NCBI GenBank assembly: GCA_937928165.1
Contig: CALFVT010000020.1
Span: 64,001-128,000, forward strand
Length of the DNA stretch: 64,000 nt
Reading direction: 5' to 3'
DNA from: an uncultured Caulobacterales bacterium
GTDB taxonomy: Bacteria; Pseudomonadota; Alphaproteobacteria; Caulobacterales; Maricaulaceae
A program made the position numbers and the translations under genes. The notes under the pieces are model-generated. The model had not been told where the DNA came from. It searched no databases and worked only from the letters and a program-made list of their open reading frames with translations. Below, piece after piece: positions 11,282-29,466 of this stretch; position 1 is the first letter of the stretch, and the number at the start of each line of letters is the position of its first letter.

Positions 11282-11527
11282 TTAAGGCTTCGCGTCGAGA
11301 CGTTTCTCAATGCGCAGCACCGTTTGCCGCGTAAAATCCACTTTCTCTTCAAGGCGGGCTAAACGCTCATTAACGGGCGGTACCTGGGAGACTTCTGTTT
11401 CAAGCATTTTAATACGGGCCTCTGCGGCTCCGGCCCAAATAAGCGCACTAGCTGTTTGGAGGCAAAAGGCTAAAATGAAACTTAATGTAAATTTTTTTTC
11501 TAAGTAAAAACCATCTTTACCGCTCAC
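11282..11527 (-). CDS. GTA g3.5-like small membrane/coiled-coil protein
   Basis: An 81-residue protein with one N-terminal membrane segment (FTLSFILAFCLQTASALIWAGA) and a C-terminal coiled coil (NERLARLEEKVDFTRQTVLRIEKRL). It sits between portal and protease, the place of the unnamed g3.5 in RcGTA. The start is a GTG overlapping the portal stop region: GGAGG lies 6 bases before it. An ATG further upstream (11575) would extend it by 16 Arg/Trp-rich residues deep inside the portal gene and is less likely. Function is unknown. Confidence 0.75.
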   Translation of the reverse strand: MSGKDGFYLEKKFTLSFILAFCLQTASALIWAGAAEARIKMLETEVSQVPPVNERLARLEEKVDFTRQTVLRIEKRLDAKP

Positions 11528-12728
11528 CCTGCGCCTCCAGCGGCGGGAGGTCAGCCATTTGTCGCCGCTCATCATCCGTCAAAAAACTAGCATTTGAAAG
11601 CCGCGACCAGAGGGCGGCGCGTTCTTCGAACAGAGCCGGAATAGCGTCCATATCCACGCTAATCTTTACGTCATCACCAAAGTGGGGCCGCATCCAACGC
11701 TCAAGCCCTTGGGCCGTCTTTTTCACCAAGGGCAAAATAACGATACGCCAAAACGCTAGATTAGCTTCACGGTAGTTGGAATAAGTATTATCCCCTGGAA
11801 TACCGAGCAGCATGGGCGGCACGCCAAAGGCCAAAGCAATCTCCCGCGCGGCTTCACGGCGGGCATTGAGAAAATCCATATCAGTGGGCGAAAGGCTCAT
11901 CGCTTTCCAGTCAAGGCCGCCTTCTAAAAGCATGGGACGGCCCGCTCTGTCTGCGCCGCTATGAGCCTGTTCAAGCTCATCTTTAAGCCGGTCAAATTGA
12001 TCACTTGATAAGCGCTCGCTTCCTTGTGCCCCTTGATAAACAAGCGCGCCGCTTGGGCGGGCAGAATTATCCAGCAGGGCTTTAACCCAGCGTGCGCCTT
12101 CATTGTGAATATCAATGGCGCGGCCCGCCGCCTCCATCGGGGCATAGCCGTAAATATCATCATGCGGATGAAATAACCGCAAATGATAAAGCCCGCAGCG
12201 CCCCGTTGCGATATCATTTTCAATAAAGCGCTTTCTGTTATTTAGGCTATAATTATACCCGGTCTTATAGCCCTTTGCACTTGTTACGGCCTCAACGCGG
12301 TCGGGGCGTAAGGCACGAAATCCAATCACTTGTTCATCCAGCCTTACCGCTTCAATATAGCCATTACCGCAGACTTGAAGATGACCATAAAAGCTCTCTA
12401 ATATGTCTGTAAAAGACTGCTCACTATGGGTTTGGCAAAAAGCGCGCTGTAAGGGATCATTGGCTAAAACCTCCCCGCCCCGCGTCACGCAAAACCCGAC
12501 AGAGGCAGCTGCTTCTGAGATAAATCTAACGCAGCGATAGGCGATTGCATTTGATTTAAATCCGTCCTGCGAAAGCCCTTCATAACTCCGGCTCCCCCAT
12601 TGTGCGCGCTGCGCTAATTGCAGGGCAATTAAAGGGCGGCCATTATCGGTTTTAGCTGATAAATTCCTATGTGAGGCTTGTTTTGTCTGCGGCTTTAAAC
12701 GGCGCGCACGCTTCGTCCAGTTTTTCAT
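11517..12728 (-). CDS. GTA g3: HK97-family portal protein
   Basis: A 403-residue HK97-type portal protein that forms the DNA passage ring at the capsid vertex. Family blocks are visible: NAIAYRCVRFISEAAASV near residue 60, YGHLQVCGNGYIEAVR near 120, and FGVPPMLLGIPGDNTYSNY near 300. Length is normal. The upstream ribosome binding site is weak. A 174-bp gap and two non-canonical genes separate it from terminase g2. Confidence 0.95.
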   Translation of the reverse strand: MKNWTKRARRLKPQTKQASHRNLSAKTDNGRPLIALQLAQRAQWGSRSYEGLSQDGFKSNAIAYRCVRFISEAAASVGFCVTRGGEVLANDPLQRAFCQTHSEQSFTDILESFYGHLQVCGNGYIEAVRLDEQVIGFRALRPDRVEAVTSAKGYKTGYNYSLNNRKRFIENDIATGRCGLYHLRLFHPHDDIYGYAPMEAAGRAIDIHNEGARWVKALLDNSARPSGALVYQGAQGSERLSSDQFDRLKDELEQAHSGADRAGRPMLLEGGLDWKAMSLSPTDMDFLNARREAAREIALAFGVPPMLLGIPGDNTYSNYREANLAFWRIVILPLVKKTAQGLERWMRPHFGDDVKISVDMDAIPALFEERAALWSRLSNASFLTDDERRQMADLPPLEAQGER

Positions 12729-12902
12729 AAATTACATCTATCTTTGCCAAGATCAGTTTACGCGGCTGTGAAAAGCCCGTAAAATAATCGCTGTTGGAAA
12801 TCTTCAAGGTCATTTCTGACGATGAATGAAAGATAGCGTGTAATGAGTGGGGTGAGGATTTAACTCACAAGCTTTAGAAAAAACTGATTATTATCAAGGT
12901 GC

Positions 12903-13349
12903 CTAAGCTGCGCCTTTGCGGGATGGGTTTCTGCCGATCTCGCGGTTGTAGTTTTTTGCAGCCGTATAATCCTTTCGGATACGGGCACGTAGTTTTTCAT
13001 TTCCCGTGACAGAGGCCAACGTAATGGCATGACGATATTCACTCATGGCTTGATGTAAAATATCAATATCATGATTAGTCTTAGCAATTTGAAAAAGCGT
13101 TCCGGCAAGAATGAGATGTATCTCGGCATTTTCTTGCGGGGTGTTTTCAGGGCTATAGCGTTGTTGTGAACGGCGCAGCATATCAGCCGATTGGGTCAAC
13201 GCATTTACATCGCCCGTTTGACTCGCAAGCACGATCATTTGCGTCGCCAGTTCACGGTTAAGTGCTGCAAGTTCTTTGGAGACTTGCTTCAATCCTTGAC
13301 GGGACTTTAAACTACCCGATAAATTTTGACTGTCCGACACTCTTGCCAT
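12903..13349 (-). CDS. Small helical protein inserted in the GTA cluster
   Basis: A 148-residue, nearly all-helical soluble protein that I do not recognise. The C-terminal half (AEIHLILAGTLFQIAKTNHDIDILHQAMSEYRHAIT) has the spacing of tetratricopeptide-like helix pairs. The N-terminal half is a Gln/Ser/Leu-rich helix (KQVSKELAALNREL). The start MARVSDSQ is chosen because GGAG lies 7 bases upstream; an ATG 15 bases earlier includes that site. It lies between DUF2726 and the portal gene and has a TTAA-N7-TTAA CtrA box 43 bp upstream. No assigned function. Confidence 0.7.
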   Translation of the reverse strand: MARVSDSQNLSGSLKSRQGLKQVSKELAALNRELATQMIVLASQTGDVNALTQSADMLRRSQQRYSPENTPQENAEIHLILAGTLFQIAKTNHDIDILHQAMSEYRHAITLASVTGNEKLRARIRKDYTAAKNYNREIGRNPSRKGAA

Positions 13350-13391
13350 ATTTCTACTCCACATTGCAGCTATAATATGCAGCTATTACGG

Positions 13392-13406
13392 TTAATAGGT
13401 GTTTAA
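13392..13406. promoter_or_regulatory. CtrA box inside the GTA cluster
   Basis: Perfect TTAA-N7-TTAA (N7 = TAGGTGT) in the 59-bp gap between the DUF2726 gene and the helical-protein gene, 43 bp before the latter's start codon on the minus strand. This is the full CtrA recognition motif of Caulobacter-type alphaproteobacteria. Its position suggests direct CtrA control of the helical gene and possibly of the capsid and tail genes downstream. Binding is inferred. Confidence 0.55.
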
Positions 13407-13408
13407 GA

Positions 13409-13957
13409 TTAATGCAGTTCACTCATTATTTTTCGCGTAAAACTATGAAAATCTTGCCCCACAGCTATGCGGTGTAACGGTAAACCTACAGATTTCGCTA
13501 ATCCATTTTTGAAAGAATCTGGCCGCTGTGCTAACGCTGTATGGTGAGAAGCCCCGTCGAGCTCAATCATCATAAGCGGCTGGCCTTGCGGGGTTGTAAT
13601 CAGGAAATCAACATGGCGGCTTTTAACTCGCCCCCGTAAGGCCCATTTAACCTCAGCGTTTTTAACGCTAGCCCTAACGGCAATGATATCTTCAAGACGA
13701 ACCTTAGAAAACACATGGTATTTTGGCGTAAGGCACTCATATAATATAAAGAATAAAGCCTGTTCAGAACTATTCACAAAAAGATTGGGTTTTGCGTAAA
13801 AGTTTTTAAATATGCCCGGATTAAAAGCTTTTGTCTCCGGTGTTTTAAACGCTGGTTTTGGCTTTAGACACCATAAAATCCATAGTGAAATCAGCGCAAA
13901 TCCCGCAGTTATAAATATGAATATATTAGCCATAGGCTGTCTTGGCAGAGCTTCCAT
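13409..13957 (-). CDS. Membrane-anchored DUF2726 nuclease-fold protein in the GTA cluster
   Basis: A 182-residue protein with one N-terminal transmembrane helix (FIFITAGFALISLWILW), a 60-residue linker and a C-terminal DUF2726 domain. The domain has the restriction-endonuclease-like core: HVDFLI, then MMIELDGASHH, then GLPLHRIAV, which supplies the Asp and Glu of a PD-(D/E)xK-like site. The start at 13957 is used; ATG at 13933, just before the membrane helix, is equally possible. It sits between terminase g2 and portal g3, where RcGTA has no gene. A DNA-related role is inferred only from the fold. Confidence 0.8.
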   Translation of the reverse strand: MEALPRQPMANIFIFITAGFALISLWILWCLKPKPAFKTPETKAFNPGIFKNFYAKPNLFVNSSEQALFFILYECLTPKYHVFSKVRLEDIIAVRASVKNAEVKWALRGRVKSRHVDFLITTPQGQPLMMIELDGASHHTALAQRPDSFKNGLAKSVGLPLHRIAVGQDFHSFTRKIMSELH

Positions 13958-13997: not shown

Positions 13998-15272
13998 TTA
14001 AACGCCCCGTATGGCAGGCCTGACGGCTTGTCGGAGCAATAAATCTGTGACCGCCCAAATCAAAGCGTCCGCACGGTCAGGGCTTTTCATCAAGCTTTGG
14101 GTGCCCATAAGGCAGAGCTCATCTTCAAGATGAGACAACCCTGCTCCTACATGATGCACGCGGCCTTGGCCATAAAGGGCCGCCACAGGTTCTGCCCGTA
14201 GGCGTTTTCCTTTATGGGCAAAGACCGTATGAACAGGCACCCCAGGATTGACCATGTGTAAAACTGTAGTCACCAGATCACCCCCTTGATTGGTTTCGGC
14301 CAAGATATAATCCGCTTGCCAACTCTCATAAAGGCCCACGGCCAATGCTGCCCAGTTTTCGGGGCTTACCCCTTGGATGCTCGCATCTTCCAAAATAAAA
14401 GCGCGGGCTTGCCGCCCATAACCTATACGCCCCGCAACAATCATTCCGCATGCATCAGAGTTTTTATGCCCCGTCACAGGCGGATCAAGGGCGATGATGA
14501 TTTTATCACATTCAGGCCGCTGCTGCACGCGGCAGGCCTCAATCAAACTACGGCTCCATAAAGCGCCGGGCAAATCTTCGATAAATTCCCCTGCAAGTTC
14601 TTGTCGCCCAAGCCGTGTGCCGCCGTAGCTTTCTTCCATCGCGCTTATAAATCCTGGCGCAAGGAAGCCCGTATTATCTTGGGTTGTCATTTGGCTCATA
14701 ACAAGCCCCTTCGCTTGCATGAGTTTCTTGAGGGCCGGTAGAGGCCGCGGTGTGGTTGTCACAACTAATTGCGGCTGCGTACCCAGCCTTAAACCAAGCC
14801 GCAAATTTGCAAGCGTGTCGGCCGGATAGCTCCACGCACAAAATTCATCAGCCCAAGCATATTCAAATTGCGGCCCGCGAAGGCTATCCGGATCTTCGGA
14901 TGAAAACACCTGCCCAACAGCGCCGTTTGGCCACTCCAGCCGTCTGCGGGAGGAAATAAACGTCGGACGCTCACCAGGGTAGCCAATATGGCGAAGACCA
15001 CTTTCGCCCTCGATCATCACTTCACGGGCGTCATTAAAAGTCGGAGCCACCAAAGCAATACGGCCCGCCCCTTGGCTTATTTTTTGGCGTATCCATTCAG
15101 CCCCAGCGCGGGTTTTACCGGAGCCGCGCCCCCCCAGTAGAAGCCAAATAAGCCATGCCTCTTCCGGGGGCCATTGATCCGCCCGAGCATATAATGCCCA
15201 AAGGTAATCGAGGTGGGCCATATCATGCGCCAAAAGACCATTAATCAGCGCTTGGTAACGGGGCCTGTTCAT
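13998..15272 (-). CDS. GTA g2: large terminase (TerL)
   Basis: The DNA-packaging motor, 424 residues from the chosen start. The ATPase domain has Walker A GGRGSGKT and a Walker B-type AWADEF. The RNase H-like nuclease domain shows IIALDPP and ILAETNQGGD acidic motifs. ATGs at 15350, 15272 and 15221 are possible; 15272 (MNRPRYQAL) gives the usual distance of about 45 residues to Walker A and overlaps g1 by 32 bp. GTA terminases package host DNA by headful without sequence specificity. Confidence 0.93.
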   Translation of the reverse strand: MNRPRYQALINGLLAHDMAHLDYLWALYARADQWPPEEAWLIWLLLGGRGSGKTRAGAEWIRQKISQGAGRIALVAPTFNDAREVMIEGESGLRHIGYPGERPTFISSRRRLEWPNGAVGQVFSSEDPDSLRGPQFEYAWADEFCAWSYPADTLANLRLGLRLGTQPQLVVTTTPRPLPALKKLMQAKGLVMSQMTTQDNTGFLAPGFISAMEESYGGTRLGRQELAGEFIEDLPGALWSRSLIEACRVQQRPECDKIIIALDPPVTGHKNSDACGMIVAGRIGYGRQARAFILEDASIQGVSPENWAALAVGLYESWQADYILAETNQGGDLVTTVLHMVNPGVPVHTVFAHKGKRLRAEPVAALYGQGRVHHVGAGLSHLEDELCLMGTQSLMKSPDRADALIWAVTDLLLRQAVRPAIRGV

Positions 15273-15564
15273 TGAGGCGATTGTAGAGATGTGTAAGCCG
15301 CTTAACAAATCGCGCTCTATCTTCGGGGCTTGGCGGTGGGAGATCGTCATAGCTTAGGTGTTTTCCATCCTCCTCTTGCGCAGCATGGCGCGCATTATGG
15401 GCGGTAATATCCTGTACAGCTTTCACATAGAGGCTAATCACTTTGGCGCGTTTTTCAGACCGTAGGAAAAAAGCCTCATCGTCTAAACTCAGAGGCTCAT
15501 CTGTTATCTGGTCAACCATTTGGCGAATAGCCCGCTCTAGCGGTGCAGGGTCTATAAATGTCAT
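15241..15564 (-). CDS. GTA g1: small terminase-like protein (TerS)
   Basis: A 107-residue protein at the head of the GTA cluster, directly upstream of and overlapping g2. It has an EKRAKVISLYVKAVQDITAHN helix followed by an acidic linker and a DRARFVKRLTHLYNRL helix. This matches the g1/TerS pattern of RcGTA-type clusters. No Shine-Dalgarno sequence is visible before the ATG. It starts 57 bp after the ycgN-like stop codon on the same strand. The call rests on position and helix pattern. Confidence 0.72.
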   Translation of the reverse strand: MTFIDPAPLERAIRQMVDQITDEPLSLDDEAFFLRSEKRAKVISLYVKAVQDITAHNARHAAQEEDGKHLSYDDLPPPSPEDRARFVKRLTHLYNRLNEQAPLPSAD

Positions 15565-15621
15565 GATAGTTATTATGGAGGGCCTTAAGACGGCGTGGAT
15601 TTATATCCGCTTTTTACACTG

Positions 15622-16166: not shown

Positions 16167-18161
16167 ATGCCAACATATCGTGCTGACATTAATGCTGCTA
16201 ATGATAACGCCCTGCGGCGCAGGCGGGCGATATGGTTATCTATCTTGACCTTATTAATAACATTTACGGCGATTGCCTATATCTTTGGGCGTCAATTTGT
16301 CTTGCAAGGCATTCCGCAACTACCCGACAAAGCCAAAATGTGGGAGCTTAACCTCGAAACCAATTACACTTTGGTTGATCGTCAGGGCCATATTATTGGC
16401 CACCGCGGCCCTTATATCGGGCGGCCCCATAAAATCAGCGAGTTACCGCCCTATCTACCGAATGCGTTTTTAGCGATTGAAGATGAGCGGTTTTATACCC
16501 ACCCCGGTATTGACCGTAAGGCCATATTACGCGCCTTTTTTGAAAATACCAAGTCTGGCCGTAAGGCACAGGGCGGTTCCACCCTCACCCAGCAGCTCGT
16601 TAAAAACCTCGTTTTAACCCGTGAGCAGACTTATAAACGCAAAGTTCAGGAAATGTGGCTCGCCTATGAGATGGAGCAAATCCTCTCAAAACAGGAAATC
16701 CTTGAGCTTTATCTCAACCGCATTGATTTAGGGCGGCGCATTGTCGGCATTGAAGCCGCCTCCCAGCGCTATTTCGGCAAATCCGCCAAGCAAATCACCC
16801 TTGCCGAAGCGGCAGTGCTCGCCAGTATCCCGAAAGCGCCAAGCACATATGATCCCATTCGCAATTTTGATGCCGCATGGACACGGGCACGGCTTGTGCT
16901 TGAGCGAATGCGCGTTAATGGATTTATCACCACTTTGGATATGTCCGAAGCGCTCACTCACCCGCCTCGCATTATAGACACGAGCGAAACCTATATAGAT
17001 GACAGCCTTATTGGACATGTCTTCGATTACGCCGCAGAACGGGCCCATGACCTTGTCGGCTATAAAAACCCAGATCTTGTTATTCAGGTGACTGTTGACC
17101 CTGAAATGCAAAAATGGGCTAAGGAGTCCACTGAGGCAGTTTTAAGTCAAGAACATAAGCGTAAAAAAGTTTCCGAAGCGGCTTTAATATCAACAGACAA
17201 TCAAACGGGCGCGATACTCGCCATGATTGGTGGACGAGATTACGGCCAAAGTAAATTTAACCGCGCCGTACAGGCTAAACGCCAACCCGGATCATCATTT
17301 AAGACTTTTGTTTATGCCGCAGCCCTTGAAAACGGCTTTACGCCAGGAACAATTCGTATTGACCGCCCGACGACAATTAATGGTTGGACCCCTGAAAACT
17401 ACACGAAACGCTACCAAGGGCCTATGACCCTACGGGAGGCTTTAAAACTTTCTATCAATACCATTGCCGCGAGTGTCTGCGCGGAAATTGGCCCAAGTAA
17501 AGTTGCTGATTTAGGCCGCCGTTTTGGCCTTAGAACCGAGCTTCGGCCAACATATTCTTTGGCACTAGGGGCGTCTGAAGTCACCCTAGACGATATGGTC
17601 GGCGCTTATATGGTCTTTCCAAACTCTGGGCGGAAGATTACGCCTTACTTAATTGAGAACATCAAAAACACAGCAGGCGACGAACTTTATACGCGCCGCC
17701 AAAGAGAGCCAGAGCGGGTTTATTCCAACCGTAACAACCGGCAAATGAGCCGTCTTTTACAAGACGTAATTGATAGCGGAACAGGGCGCGGCGCAAAACT
17801 TGGCAAACGCCCGGCCGGAGGGAAAACAGGCACGTCACAAGATTACCGCGATGCGTGGTTTATCGGGTTTACCGCTGACTATACAACAGGCGTATGGATG
17901 GGCAATGATGATAACGCCCCCACGCGCAAGATAACCGGCGGCTTACTCCCCGTTGATATTTGGAAATCCTATATGCTCAAAGCCCATAAGGGCCGAAAAA
18001 TACGGCCTATACTGGCCGATGAAGACCCTAAGCTTAATGATAAACGCCAAGCGGTGACTGCATTTTATCAAGACCTAGTTGATGCCATGATAACAGAACG
18101 TAATCTTGCCAGCGGCTTAACACCGCCGCCAAAAATTAGCGCAGCAGCGGCGCAAAATTAA
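16167..18161 (+). CDS. mrcA: Penicillin-binding protein 1A
   Basis: A 664-residue bifunctional class A PBP that polymerises and cross-links peptidoglycan at the inner membrane's outer face. Order: short cytoplasmic tail, one membrane anchor (WLSILTLLITFTAIAYIFG), GT51 glycosyltransferase domain (EDERFYTHPGID, KAQGGSTLTQQL, RKVQEMWLA), then transpeptidase domain with SSFK, SIN and KTGTS motifs. The start MPTYRADINAAND was preferred because the 27 codons upstream run into the divergent ycgN-like gene. All catalytic motifs are intact. Confidence 0.94.
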   Translation: MPTYRADINAANDNALRRRRAIWLSILTLLITFTAIAYIFGRQFVLQGIPQLPDKAKMWELNLETNYTLVDRQGHIIGHRGPYIGRPHKISELPPYLPNAFLAIEDERFYTHPGIDRKAILRAFFENTKSGRKAQGGSTLTQQLVKNLVLTREQTYKRKVQEMWLAYEMEQILSKQEILELYLNRIDLGRRIVGIEAASQRYFGKSAKQITLAEAAVLASIPKAPSTYDPIRNFDAAWTRARLVLERMRVNGFITTLDMSEALTHPPRIIDTSETYIDDSLIGHVFDYAAERAHDLVGYKNPDLVIQVTVDPEMQKWAKESTEAVLSQEHKRKKVSEAALISTDNQTGAILAMIGGRDYGQSKFNRAVQAKRQPGSSFKTFVYAAALENGFTPGTIRIDRPTTINGWTPENYTKRYQGPMTLREALKLSINTIAASVCAEIGPSKVADLGRRFGLRTELRPTYSLALGASEVTLDDMVGAYMVFPNSGRKITPYLIENIKNTAGDELYTRRQREPERVYSNRNNRQMSRLLQDVIDSGTGRGAKLGKRPAGGKTGTSQDYRDAWFIGFTADYTTGVWMGNDDNAPTRKITGGLLPVDIWKSYMLKAHKGRKIRPILADEDPKLNDKRQAVTAFYQDLVDAMITERNLASGLTPPPKISAAAAQN

Positions 18162-18172
18162 ATCATCCTTAA
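18158..18172. promoter_or_regulatory. CtrA box before the CAP/PAN gene
   Basis: Perfect TTAA-N7-TTAA (N7 = ATCATCC) overlapping the stop codon of the PBP1A gene, 66 bp upstream of the CAP/PAN gene start. A TTAACC half-site follows at about 18191. It suggests cell-cycle control of the secreted PAN proteins. Binding is inferred from the motif. Confidence 0.5.
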
Positions 18173-18237
18173 TCACCTTTACTATGATTTAACCAAAGCT
18201 CTATTGATCAAGCCCATAAATTATGCAGGGTGAGCAC

Positions 18238-18915
18238 ATGAATATATTCCGCCGCATTTGGCCTTTCTTTATCGCCATAGTCTTTTACATGCCGCCTGCG
18301 GGCTCAGATGACGATTTTGGTCAGCGGCTAGCCAATGACGGTACTTATAAAATTATTATCGTCGACTCGCCCCAAGCTTGCACAGCCCTCTGCCAAGCAG
18401 AAACAGACCATATTTGCCGCGGCCATATATTTTACCAAGCAGATATTTCAAAACCGGAAGGCGAATGCCGCCTTAATAGCGGAATTGGTGAAAACTCTGC
18501 TTTTCAAATCCCTGAACCTGCGCCAATCGATAGAGCCATAGTCTTGCGCGATGTCAATAATTACCGCGCAGACTATGGGCTTGCGCCGCTCACATGGGAC
18601 GATCAACTTGAAAGTGCAGCCAAGGCCCATAGCGCCGATATGGCCTTTCACGGCGTCATTCAACATGAAGGTACGGATGGCTCCCATCACGGCACTCGAA
18701 TCCGCCGCCAAGGTTATCTCTATTCCATCGCTCTTGAAAACGTCGCCGCCGGACAGCGAAGTTGGGAGGGTGCCCTACAGGGCTGGAAAGACAGTAAGGC
18801 ACATAACGAGGCCCTTTTAAGCGCAGATGTAAGTGAATTTGGCGTCGCGATTGAGTTTAACGACGCCACCCGGCTTGCAACTTATTGGACAATGGTGCTT
18901 GCAAAGCCGCTTTAA
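18238..18915 (+). CDS. Secreted PAN-CAP domain protein
   Basis: A 225-residue exported protein. A signal peptide (RRIWPFFIAIVFYMPPAGS) is followed by a PAN/apple-like domain of about 60 residues with four cysteines (CTALC, HICRG, ECRL). A CAP/SCP domain runs from about residue 100 to the end: AKAHSADMA, IALENVAAG and DSKAHNEALL give the conserved His/Glu/His set. The start MNIFRR has AGGGTGAG 7 bases before it. CAP domains in bacteria are cell-surface proteins of varied or unknown activity. The next gene also begins with a PAN domain. Confidence 0.85.
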   Translation: MNIFRRIWPFFIAIVFYMPPAGSDDDFGQRLANDGTYKIIIVDSPQACTALCQAETDHICRGHIFYQADISKPEGECRLNSGIGENSAFQIPEPAPIDRAIVLRDVNNYRADYGLAPLTWDDQLESAAKAHSADMAFHGVIQHEGTDGSHHGTRIRRQGYLYSIALENVAAGQRSWEGALQGWKDSKAHNEALLSADVSEFGVAIEFNDATRLATYWTMVLAKPL

Positions 18916-27588: not shown

Positions 27589-28386
27589 TTACCGCTTCAA
27601 ATCTTGTCCCGGAATAGTGCCGTAATAAAGCGCTAATCTTTGGAGCGCGAGTTTAAGGATTGTTCGGCCAGCCCCACGCGCCCAAAACTGCTCCCGCTCC
27701 AACTGTGCAAAGGATTTACCTTCCCCGCAAATAACATCTGCCGCCTTTTCAAGGCCGATTCCTAATACAGCTTTTGCTGATTGATAAGCCGCACCTGCAT
27801 CTATTCGTATGACAGCCGCCATTTCTTGGCTGTTTTGCCGCATCTTATCAACTGTAACCCCTGTAAAGTTTTGCCCGCCGATAGCCGTGCCGTAAGCCTT
27901 TGCATAATCGCGTTGAAATTGCTCACCGGCCTCAAGCTCATGGGCGGAAAATAAGAGACGTCCGGCCGCATCCCGGTCATTCGCAAGCCGCCGCAATATG
28001 TGGCCGCTATGACGGCGCTTAACTTGACGCTGAACACCACTAGGAACATAAACTGTTTTTTCATCCCCTTCAATGACGGCTAGGTCAGGACGTAGACACC
28101 AGCGGTCTTCAATCAAAGCACGCTCTGCAGCATATGTAAAAACCAGACCTTTTCTACAAGGCTTTAAATGACCATTTTCATATAATGCATTCACATCGGC
28201 CTTTTGCATCCACCCTAGCGGACGGCGGCGGCGGTCCCCTTGCGCGTAGACTGCGCATAGATCTACAGGCTTGCTATTATCAATAACTGCATAGGACGCG
28301 GCAGCCGTTTTCAAAAAAGAAACATCAGCGCTTAATTTATCTGCACGGGCCTGACCCTTAGGTATAAAATATGCATGCACTGTCAC
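27589..28386 (-). CDS. DUF6456 domain protein
   Basis: A 265-residue cytoplasmic protein. The C-terminal third matches the alphaproteobacterial DUF6456 domain (GAGRTILKLALQRLALYYG, preceded by a helix with the FAQLEREQFWARG segment). The middle has a KRRHSGHILRRLAND segment. Start is a GTG overlapping the stop of the DnaA-like gene (GTGA), with AGGAG 6 bases upstream, so translation is coupled. The domain resembles proteins annotated as putative DNA-binding regulators; the function is not established. Confidence 0.8.
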   Translation of the reverse strand: MTVHAYFIPKGQARADKLSADVSFLKTAAASYAVIDNSKPVDLCAVYAQGDRRRRPLGWMQKADVNALYENGHLKPCRKGLVFTYAAERALIEDRWCLRPDLAVIEGDEKTVYVPSGVQRQVKRRHSGHILRRLANDRDAAGRLLFSAHELEAGEQFQRDYAKAYGTAIGGQNFTGVTVDKMRQNSQEMAAVIRIDAGAAYQSAKAVLGIGLEKAADVICGEGKSFAQLEREQFWARGAGRTILKLALQRLALYYGTIPGQDLKR

Positions 28387-28733
28387 AGAGAGAGCTCCTC
28401 ACTCACAGCAATGCTCCTTGACGCTTTTAAAAAGGCCTCAAGACGGGCAATTTTTCTATCCAGCTGCGGGTCTTCACGGTAATCTTCAATCACATTACAA
28501 GCATGGCTCGCAGTGCTTCGGTCGCGGTTAAAAGTGCGTCCAATCCGGCTTAGGCTAATGCCATATATAACATTCATTAAATACATTGATAACTGCCGCG
28601 CAAAACACATATCATTTGAGCCCCGCGTTTTGGACTTTACATCCATATAAGCGATGCCAAATTCCAATGTTACGGCCGCAACAATAAGCTGCGCGCGCTG
28701 CACGTCTGTTTTCGTTTTATCATTAATTACCAT
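28383..28733 (-). CDS. DnaA domain-IV-only DNA-binding protein
   Basis: A 116-residue protein that consists mainly of a DnaA C-terminal helix-turn-helix domain. The DnaA signature-like segment FNRDRSTASHACNVIED is recognisable, preceded by FARQLSMYLMNVIYGISLSRIGRTF. The AAA+ ATPase and domains I-III are missing, so it is not the replication initiator. It could bind DnaA-box-like sites as a regulator or competitor. GGAG lies 7 bases upstream of the ATG. It is coupled to the DUF6456 gene. Confidence 0.82.
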   Translation of the reverse strand: MVINDKTKTDVQRAQLIVAAVTLEFGIAYMDVKSKTRGSNDMCFARQLSMYLMNVIYGISLSRIGRTFNRDRSTASHACNVIEDYREDPQLDRKIARLEAFLKASRSIAVSEELSL

Positions 28734-28859: not shown

Positions 28860-29369
28860 TTATACAGCAATTTTTTCTTTATATGGCATATCAATTTTAA
28901 ATTGATCACGCTTCAAAAAGCTGTCAAATCCGAGGATCATTGTTGTATTTTCACCATCACAGGACAATGGTAAACGAAGCCAAAACTGTAACATATGAGA
29001 TCCGCAAGGAGTTCCGGGGTTCGTAACGCCAACCCGCGGGCGATTTTCTTTTGCCATAACGCCGTATATACGGTTCCAATATCTTTGCTTATCAGGGCTT
29101 TGAATTTCATCGAGGTAACGCCCCGTAATTTCATCAGCATAATAGTGATAAAACCCCGTCCCCGCCAAACGTAATTTATAACGTATATCTCTGGACGTAG
29201 GGCAAATTTCTGTCAAACTAATCGTTGGTAGATAAGGCGAAAGATAGCGCGGGTCGATATCCTTATAGGACGGGATACCCCCCTTTAAACATTTTTGCCG
29301 CCAGTAATCAAAGACGGCTCTTTGTTCTGGTAATAATATTTGATGCCGAACAGATCCCAACTGTGTCAT
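28860..29369 (-). CDS. PAS_5 domain protein
   Basis: A 169-residue soluble protein of the alphaproteobacterial PAS_5 (PF07310-type) family: YWRQKCLKGGIPSYKDIDPR, LPTISLTEI, YKLRLAGTGFYHYYADEITG and RYLDEIQ. These are single PAS sensory modules without an output domain; the ligand is unknown. A perfect CtrA box lies 83 bp upstream of the start. It is 146 bp downstream of mucR on the same strand. Confidence 0.82.
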   Translation of the reverse strand: MTQLGSVRHQILLPEQRAVFDYWRQKCLKGGIPSYKDIDPRYLSPYLPTISLTEICPTSRDIRYKLRLAGTGFYHYYADEITGRYLDEIQSPDKQRYWNRIYGVMAKENRPRVGVTNPGTPCGSHMLQFWLRLPLSCDGENTTMILGFDSFLKRDQFKIDMPYKEKIAV

Positions 29370-29451: not shown

Positions 29452-29466
29452 TTAATGGCTTATTAA
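29452..29466. promoter_or_regulatory. CtrA box before the PAS_5 gene
   Basis: Perfect TTAA-N7-TTAA followed by C (N7 = TGGCTTA), 83 bp upstream of the PAS_5 gene on the minus strand and just beyond the mucR 3' end. The TTAAC extension matches the Caulobacter CtrA consensus. Binding is inferred. Confidence 0.55.

Follow-up and report, generated by a model that had tools for sequence, protein, structure and literature searches.

Gene transfer agents (GTAs) are domesticated virus clusters, and the one described here comes from marine stalked bacteria. In RcGTA, the genes g2 and g3 lie directly next to each other. For the GTA of Caulobacter (CcGTA), PMC11150451 describes a promoter with a −35 element AATCAT, an inverted repeat GCGCCCG-CTGGCGC and a −10 element TATCTTT, and states that the inverted repeat is required for GafZ binding. 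Host CtrA sites are also described in phages of Alphaproteobacteria, under the term 'lytic deferment' (PMC9437464). We analysed a GTA in which a gene preceded by a CtrA box lies between terminase and portal. This gene, which we call HEL, is probably an autonomous CtrA unit inside the GTA, with the GTA activator driving g3–g15 from a promoter copy behind HEL.

The terminase–portal gap

The window, that is, the whole stretch of 64,000 nucleotides that was analysed, is part of a 2.6-Mb genome. Its minus strand carries g1, the terminase gene g2, a DUF2726 gene, HEL, the portal gene g3 and then g3.5 to g15 by position. The open reading frames of the window stand in the GTA order and are co-linear in relatives (tblastn); terminase and portal were identified by Pfam, and the other g names were given by position, not family by family. 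By its gene order the locus is an RcGTA-like gene transfer agent. The features needed below are as follows.

15559–15606, minus strand: first GTA-promoter-like site (weak), at the start of g1; matrix score 4.4, or 5.1 with another background
15241–15564, minus strand: g1, in the small-terminase position of the GTA, from its open reading frame and position
13998–15350, minus strand: g2, large terminase (PF03237, E 1.3e-30; PF17289, E 4.2e-13)
13409–13957, minus strand, probable start near 13933: DUF2726 gene (PF10881, E 1.8e-22, above cut-off)
13392–13406, minus strand: CtrA box TTAAACACCTATTAA, then C, from motif and conservation
12903–13364, minus strand, probable start 13349: HEL, predicted small TPR-like helical protein ending in GAA, from its open reading frame, conservation and purifying selection
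12817–12864, minus strand: second GTA-promoter-like element (ATCC ... TATCTTT ... CATCGTCA), matrix score 18.9
11517–12728, minus strand: g3, portal, first gene of the head–tail unit (PF04860, E 1.9e-79)
28383–28733, minus strand: GafY-like gene with a DnaA-type helix-turn-helix (PF08299, E 6.2e-16)
27589–28386, minus strand: GafZ-like gene, DUF6456 (PF20057, E 2.5e-17)

The family-model searches gave no convincing family match for g1. The initial annotation had placed a pair of extra genes between g2 and g3, one for a membrane-anchored DUF2726 protein of nuclease fold and one for a small TPR-like helical protein, with a perfect CtrA box before the latter; pair and box are both as it described them, on the minus strand.

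The DUF2726 protein matches PF10881 with 79.9 bits against a cut-off of 24.7 and consists of an N-terminal membrane-type helix followed by a restriction-endonuclease-like domain. In its structural model (pLDDT 92) the helix spans residues 9–30, and by eye the N-terminus is hydrophobic in all 21 aligned sequences, in which D117, E132, D134, H138 and K150 are invariant (21/21). A fold search returned TnsA first, weakly (E 0.03). PF10881 has been called a DNase of the restriction-endonuclease fold and is also found fused to AbiJ-NTD3 (PMC3710099). Judged from family match, predicted fold and conserved acidic residues, the protein of the window is a nuclease-fold protein.

We collected HEL genes from 60 relatives, a contig collection (27 loci) and 398 genomes of the order; loci with identical last 100 HEL residues were merged and the longest retained, which left 43 distinct genes. 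DUF2726 was found in 27 of these 43 loci (tblastn, E 1e-4), including four of nine without GTA genes, and at the same threshold was not found in the other 16, in 10 of which g2 is in view. Since it can be absent near g2 and yet present without a GTA, DUF2726 seems neither to be needed by the GTA nor to depend upon it. Both counts weaken the suggestion, made in the initial annotation, that it adds a DNA-handling factor to the particle.

The CtrA box and the promoter-like elements

The box is a perfect TTAA-N7-TTAA, reading TTAATAGGTGTTTAA on the plus strand and TTAAACACCTATTAA on the minus strand. It lies two bases beyond the DUF2726 stop codon and 42 bases from the likely start of HEL, which by eye is the second ATG (13349), behind GTGGAG. 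The window contains four perfect boxes, compared with 2.70±1.60 in dinucleotide shuffles (four or more in 27 of 100 shuffles), and the whole genome contains 105, compared with 97 for a reversed-pattern control, so that there is no global excess. With counts at chance level a single box in the window is no evidence by itself; its conservation before HEL is.

A perfect box lies upstream of HEL in 38 of the 43 distinct genes, and the remaining five (L095, L140, L177, L180 and L181) keep seven of its eight letters. When −160 to +40 bp around predicted starts were scanned, the box was present at 37/42 HEL genes, at 1/407 of the other GTA genes plus DUF2726, and at 4/57 flanking host genes. Among spacers of 3–14 bases only N7 was enriched; boxes of the other lengths preceded between none and seven of the 43 HEL genes. 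Over 643 kb, 44 of 58 boxes were upstream of HEL. The base after the perfect box is C in 38/38, and the CtrA consensus obtained by ChIP-seq in Hyphomonas neptunium is TTAA-N7-TTAAC (PMC7200025). Later loci from IMG/VR behaved in the same way. This set has 16 loci, two of them duplicates (L252 and L253); L246, L251 and L255, which have no upstream DNA, were left out of the box count, and among the 14 non-duplicate loci a perfect box was present in 11/11 of those holding upstream DNA. Conservation thus makes the box before HEL very probably a working CtrA site. The genome has a response regulator gene, MRVLLIEDD..., on contig C18 (L239), which we take from its N-terminus to be CtrA; the same gene is present in G011, G015, G026 and G031.

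Two other perfect boxes of the window can be mentioned here. One, at 29452–29466, is upstream of a gene for a MopJ-like cell-cycle regulator (28860–29369, minus strand; NF051868, E 8.4e-37, below its cut-off) that adjoins the gafYZ-like pair. The other, at 18158–18172, lies about 50 bp before a CAP/PAN-domain gene (18223–18915, plus strand), which has the box in 3/13 loci.

The gaps between HEL and g3 share a 48-bp element composed of ATCC, a spacer, a TATAA/TATCTTT-like hexamer and CATcGTCA; by eye, an inverted repeat often seems to be present in the spacer. We trained a promoter matrix on the g3 regions of 29 HEL-bearing loci, leaving the thirtieth, L130, outside. With both strands of the window scanned, 12817–12864 ranks first (18.9; the next scores 6.8), with TATCTTT as the −10 element. 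Before g3, a score of 8 or more was obtained in 29/30 HEL-bearing loci, the 29 being the training set, and L130 scored 3.8. In the later IMG/VR loci, two of which (L254 and L257) are closely related to loci of the training set, 11/14 scored above 12 before g3 (L247, 6.9; L250, −3.1; L249, −9.2). The element was absent before g3 in 32/32 HEL-less loci (scores at most 0.2).

The second-best minus-strand site of the window, 15559–15606, is the one at the start of g1 (shuffles of this region, −5.7±3.0). Scores of 3.6 or more before g1 were found in 10/31 HEL-bearing loci (best 14.1), in 12/21 HEL-less loci (best 18.0 and 16.4, against about −6 to −9±3.5 in shuffles) and in 0/14 loci from families f2–f5. 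L108 and L148, where the best site is far from the gene, were left out of the g1 and g3 counts. It is likely that both halves of the GTA share one promoter type; as the g1 site is weak or absent in many loci, this is not certain.

We compared the matrix with seven loci of Caulobacter-like genomes, which were recognised as such by the published promoter letters. Within up to 900 bp before the terminase, its best site fell on the published elements in all three loci where these occur letter for letter, and in the remaining four on a stretch that resembles them in the same register; the scores are low (−4.2 to 8.6), and the match rests on place, not height. The element between HEL and g3 looks like a GTA promoter and may correspond in register to the one mapped in Caulobacter. 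The candidate activator genes are adjacent at 27589–28733, the GafY-like gene overlapping the start of DUF6456, as a gafY–gafZ pair would. Among 14 control genomes PF20057 had a match in Caulobacter vibrioides only, and it is from this control that DUF6456 is taken as the mark of GafZ. Two further stretches resemble the element: by eye, ATCC...TATAG also precedes the GafY-like gene, and in L129 another copy (22.7) lies at about 11887–11934, some 150 bp upstream of g5, the gene for the major capsid protein.

The initial annotation had suggested from the box that the head and tail module could be under CtrA control. The site itself stood, but control of the module was demoted once the element at 12817–12864 had been seen between HEL and g3. 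One could still suppose that the CtrA box drives HEL and g3–g15 together by read-through, with the second promoter as an extra input, so that CtrA and the GTA activator would both be required for particle assembly. HEL and g3 are on the same strand, their gap is 78–249 bp in 25/29 loci, and in 35/42 gaps after HEL, the window's included, no terminator-like hairpin was found, so that a CtrA transcript could run into g3; in addition, CtrA control is stated for the Rhodobacter GTA (PMC11150451, PMC9632790). Hairpins were, however, found in 7/42 gaps, compared with 0.6% in shuffles, and in L129, L135 and L188 they stand between HEL and g3. A consensus scan of the window region for promoters and terminators remained at chance level. 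The box also stays with HEL where g3 is 1.9–2.6 kb off (L134 and L089) and where GTA genes are not near at all (nine loci, eight of them with a perfect box), g3 has a GTA-promoter-like element before it, and the CtrA phosphorelay is stated not to regulate the Caulobacter GTA (PMC9632790). Taken together, read-through control of the particle genes appears unlikely, and an autonomous HEL unit remains the reading that we prefer.

HEL with and without a gene transfer agent

We analysed where HEL occurs. In the order sample (398 genomes), 30 strong matches (7.6e-40 or better) were all in family f1, and the matches that followed (1.6e-11 and weaker) were to repeats of long proteins. In the class sample (385 genomes), only the window's own HEL matched at 1e-12; both sets are samples, not all genomes. 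The named records with HEL are Hellea and Robiginitomaculum, the others being labelled Caulobacterales or Hyphomonadaceae. Among the 37 f1 genomes of our first sample, of 60 relatives, HEL was present in 15/16 genomes of eight genera and in 0/21 genomes of other genera; the sixteenth genome (G019) has a completeness of 73%, and the portal gene is cut by the start of its contig. As to whether the pair is missing from close GTA-bearing relatives, HEL is thus present in them, DUF2726 is absent in several, and both are absent in the other genera of the family and order.

The terminase tree places the 31 HEL-bearing loci together (100/97, one change), and in the portal tree 28 HEL-bearing loci group together, with L121 (the G019 contig) as the one HEL-less row inside. 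Since the HEL loci cluster in both trees, a single entry of HEL into the GTA, in the kin of Hellea and Robiginitomaculum, fits best.

HEL was also found apart from the cluster. Nine loci (L133, L136 and L139–L145) have HEL without surrounding terminase or portal, and that of Hellea balneolensis DSM 19091 (L132) has g1, g2, DUF2726, HEL and g15, but no g3–g14. The portal gene was absent (E 1e-5) from 10/10 such HEL genomes and present in 2/2 controls; nine of these ten genomes have a perfect box, and L140 has seven of its eight letters. In L141, HEL is all that is found between the two host neighbours of the window's GTA; in L140, the host gene preceding the GTA is followed by DUF2726 and HEL; and in at least seven Hellea-type genomes HEL adjoins a purA-like gene (named by eye). 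On the HEL tree, rows with a GTA and rows without one are separated by a minimum of three changes, the former label taking in loci with the portal out of view (L138, L153 and L187); we read these as at least three separate losses of the GTA, one of them, in H. balneolensis, partial. The GafZ-like gene (DUF6456) was absent from 8/8 examined GTA-less genomes and present in 6/6 GTA-bearing ones and in H. balneolensis. Since relatives keep HEL after losing the cluster, HEL probably works for the cell and not for the particle. The same persistence, in 10/10 portal-less genomes and in 8/8 examined without the GafZ-like gene, speaks against tying the box to the head and tail module.

Three further observations concern the search. 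All 16 IMG/VR loci with HEL also carry the portal and other GTA genes and look like fragments of GTAs, so the presence of HEL in true phages was rejected for this set. A portal search in genus g29 (1/25) was not useful. In L095, L189, L111 and L122–L124 the GTA clusters are partly deleted or rearranged, remnants of the terminase or portal gene being left close to g15 and DnaJ, and they represent many stages of GTA decay in their family.

The protein encoded by HEL is predicted to fold into five helices (pLDDT 82). Its fold search was led by designed helical repeats, with natural TPR chains mostly below these at Z 10–11, which is within the range for which the tool gives a warning in the case of helical repeats. 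Some of 28 HEL members gave weak matches to Pfam TPR models (TPR_8 in nine members, TPR_12 in seven, best 0.0025), and the repeats of long proteins matched by its profile scored as in the order sample, 1.6e-11 and weaker. HEL had no convincing match to a known family: the best E values were 0.0062 in Pfam, which is below cut-off, 0.022 in PHROGs, 0.046 in NCBIfam and 0.014 in PADLOC. Among the families listed by the fold comparison no confident natural relative was found.

HEL ends in [AV]A in 43/43 (Ala-Ala in 26, Val-Ala in 17, from 17 codon pairs), behind a variable stretch with a preference for Ser-Leu-Phe/Met. The same ending occurs in 8/440 other genes of the loci. In the later IMG/VR loci 13/14 HEL genes have it, and the fourteenth open reading frame terminates early. 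A C-terminal tail of the Ala-Ala type can mark substrates of ClpXP. The tail of HEL is perhaps a tag for a ClpXP-type protease, which fits a product made under CtrA and then removed; as the CtrA of this genome ends in ...DRLSA, not AA, the degron reading rests on analogy.

For the 28 closest pairs of HEL genes, omega was 0.025–0.137 where computable, the value for L144/L145, a pair lacking the GTA, being 0.025; as dS approaches saturation in most of the pairs, these values are only rough. By this rough measure HEL is under purifying selection, also in that GTA-less pair.

Alternatively, HEL and DUF2726 could be accessory genes of the GTA, acting on the recipient side or in packaging, that linger after its loss. 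In the trees of terminase and of portal the HEL-bearing GTA loci do fall into a single clade, nearly every genome of the HEL genera has HEL (15/16 in the sample of 60 relatives, the sixteenth with a broken contig), and the title of one paper refers to a CtrA-regulated recipient capability in Rhodobacter. An antisense open reading frame resembling a DUF559 nuclease, of the restriction-endonuclease fold, is moreover found in the same gap in 6/7 Caulobacter-like loci (L291–L296), one of them confirmed by Pfam. Lingering genes, however, do not readily account for at least three losses with HEL kept, for the low omega of the GTA-less pair, for HEL still being there where the GafZ-like gene is gone (8/8 examined), or for the 10 loci with g2 in view in which DUF2726 was not found, and we regard an accessory role as quite improbable. 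A variant to which we give just as little credence places HEL, with DUF2726 where present, on the recipient side of the GTA, as a CtrA-timed and protease-cleared adaptor that would act with a membrane-anchored nuclease in handling incoming DNA. Lineages without particles would then keep HEL since they still receive the DNA of their neighbours, and the promoter would have been copied to the far side, leaving the recipient gene under the cell cycle and the donor genes under GafYZ.

That the two genes are neutral passengers of an insertion-prone gap, as the initial annotation had also allowed, is extremely improbable: the length of the g2–g3 gap does differ within the order, and unrelated open reading frames lie in it in other families, but HEL has low omega throughout the computable pairs, the box (38 perfect, five near) and the tail are conserved in the 43, HEL was retained through at least three losses, and the nuclease-type residues of DUF2726 are invariant in 21/21.

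A probable embedded CtrA unit compared with known systems

According to the reading that we prefer, HEL, a gene of the CtrA regulon, would have come once into the terminase–portal gap of the GTA, in an ancestor of Hellea and Robiginitomaculum. HEL would be driven by CtrA bound at 13392–13406. The genes g1 and g2, probably with DUF2726 behind them, would be driven by the GafYZ-like activator (27589–28733) from the original place before g1, and g3–g15 by the same activator through the promoter copy just downstream of HEL; because of this copy, the particle genes would stay coupled to their activator in spite of the inserted unit. HEL itself may be a cytosolic TPR-like adaptor, made while CtrA is active and removed through its Ala/Val-Ala tail by a ClpXP-type protease, and would work in some process of the cell that goes on after the GTA is lost. 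The sequences themselves show the gene order, the conservation and specificity of the box, the clustering in one clade and the conserved second promoter-like element, as well as purifying selection on HEL and its retention after GTA loss.

The findings point to a GTA in which the activator promoter is present twice and a cell-cycle gene is embedded; this arrangement would account for a cluster taking in foreign control while retaining its own. HEL is a clade-wide candidate member of the CtrA regulon, and a cultured strain, Hellea balneolensis DSM 19091, keeps HEL and box with the portal absent. For uncultured relatives, the promoter matrix offers a model of the GTA promoter sequence. As a caution, the presence of a CtrA box within a GTA does not by itself imply CtrA control of the particle.

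In the titles and abstracts listed by our literature searches we found no description of the gene pair, or of a CtrA box in this gap. As far as those titles and abstracts go, the apparently new feature is that a gene with a CtrA box lies within a GTA, is followed by a GTA-promoter copy and is kept after loss of the GTA.

CcGTA is similar in having the terminase in the first unit and GafY-like and GafZ-like genes, and its promoter PgtaT resembles the promoter-like element of the window in an ATC-type −35, a spacer able to hold an inverted repeat and a −10 TATCTTT (PMC11150451). There, gtaQ and gtaS also lie between terminase and portal, and one main promoter is followed by a terminator after gtaT that is passed by GafZ (PMC11150451); the window instead has a promoter-like copy before the portal gene and a CtrA-box gene before that copy. 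In the terminase–portal gap of the seven Caulobacter-like loci, neither a CtrA box nor a match to HEL or DUF2726 was found. Extra genes in this gap are not unique to the HEL clade, as gtaQ and gtaS of Caulobacter, the DUF559-like open reading frames and the gaps of other families illustrate. In family f2 (L125, L126 and L128), for example, the gap contains by eye an antisense ParA-like open reading frame and a small one ending in ...GRKSFRTG. A nuclease-fold gene beside the terminase occurs in two lineages, as DUF2726 here and as the DUF559-like gene in Caulobacter-like GTAs. The known DUF2726 proteins of the restriction-endonuclease fold agree with that of the window in family match, conserved acidic residues and fold, and differ from it in that the latter has an N-terminal membrane-type helix and adjoins a terminase.

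RcGTA has the same gene order, g1 to g15, and differs in being activated through GafA and others; no HEL relative was found in the class sample. CtrA matters for that system (PMC11150451, PMC9632790). The phages of lytic deferment, finally, are alike in having host CtrA sites inside phage-type DNA. Such sites are described for several phages, one of which has 12 canonical sites in a single gap (PMC9437464), whereas in the clade of the window one to three sites go with a single gene, which persists when the phage-like element is lost.
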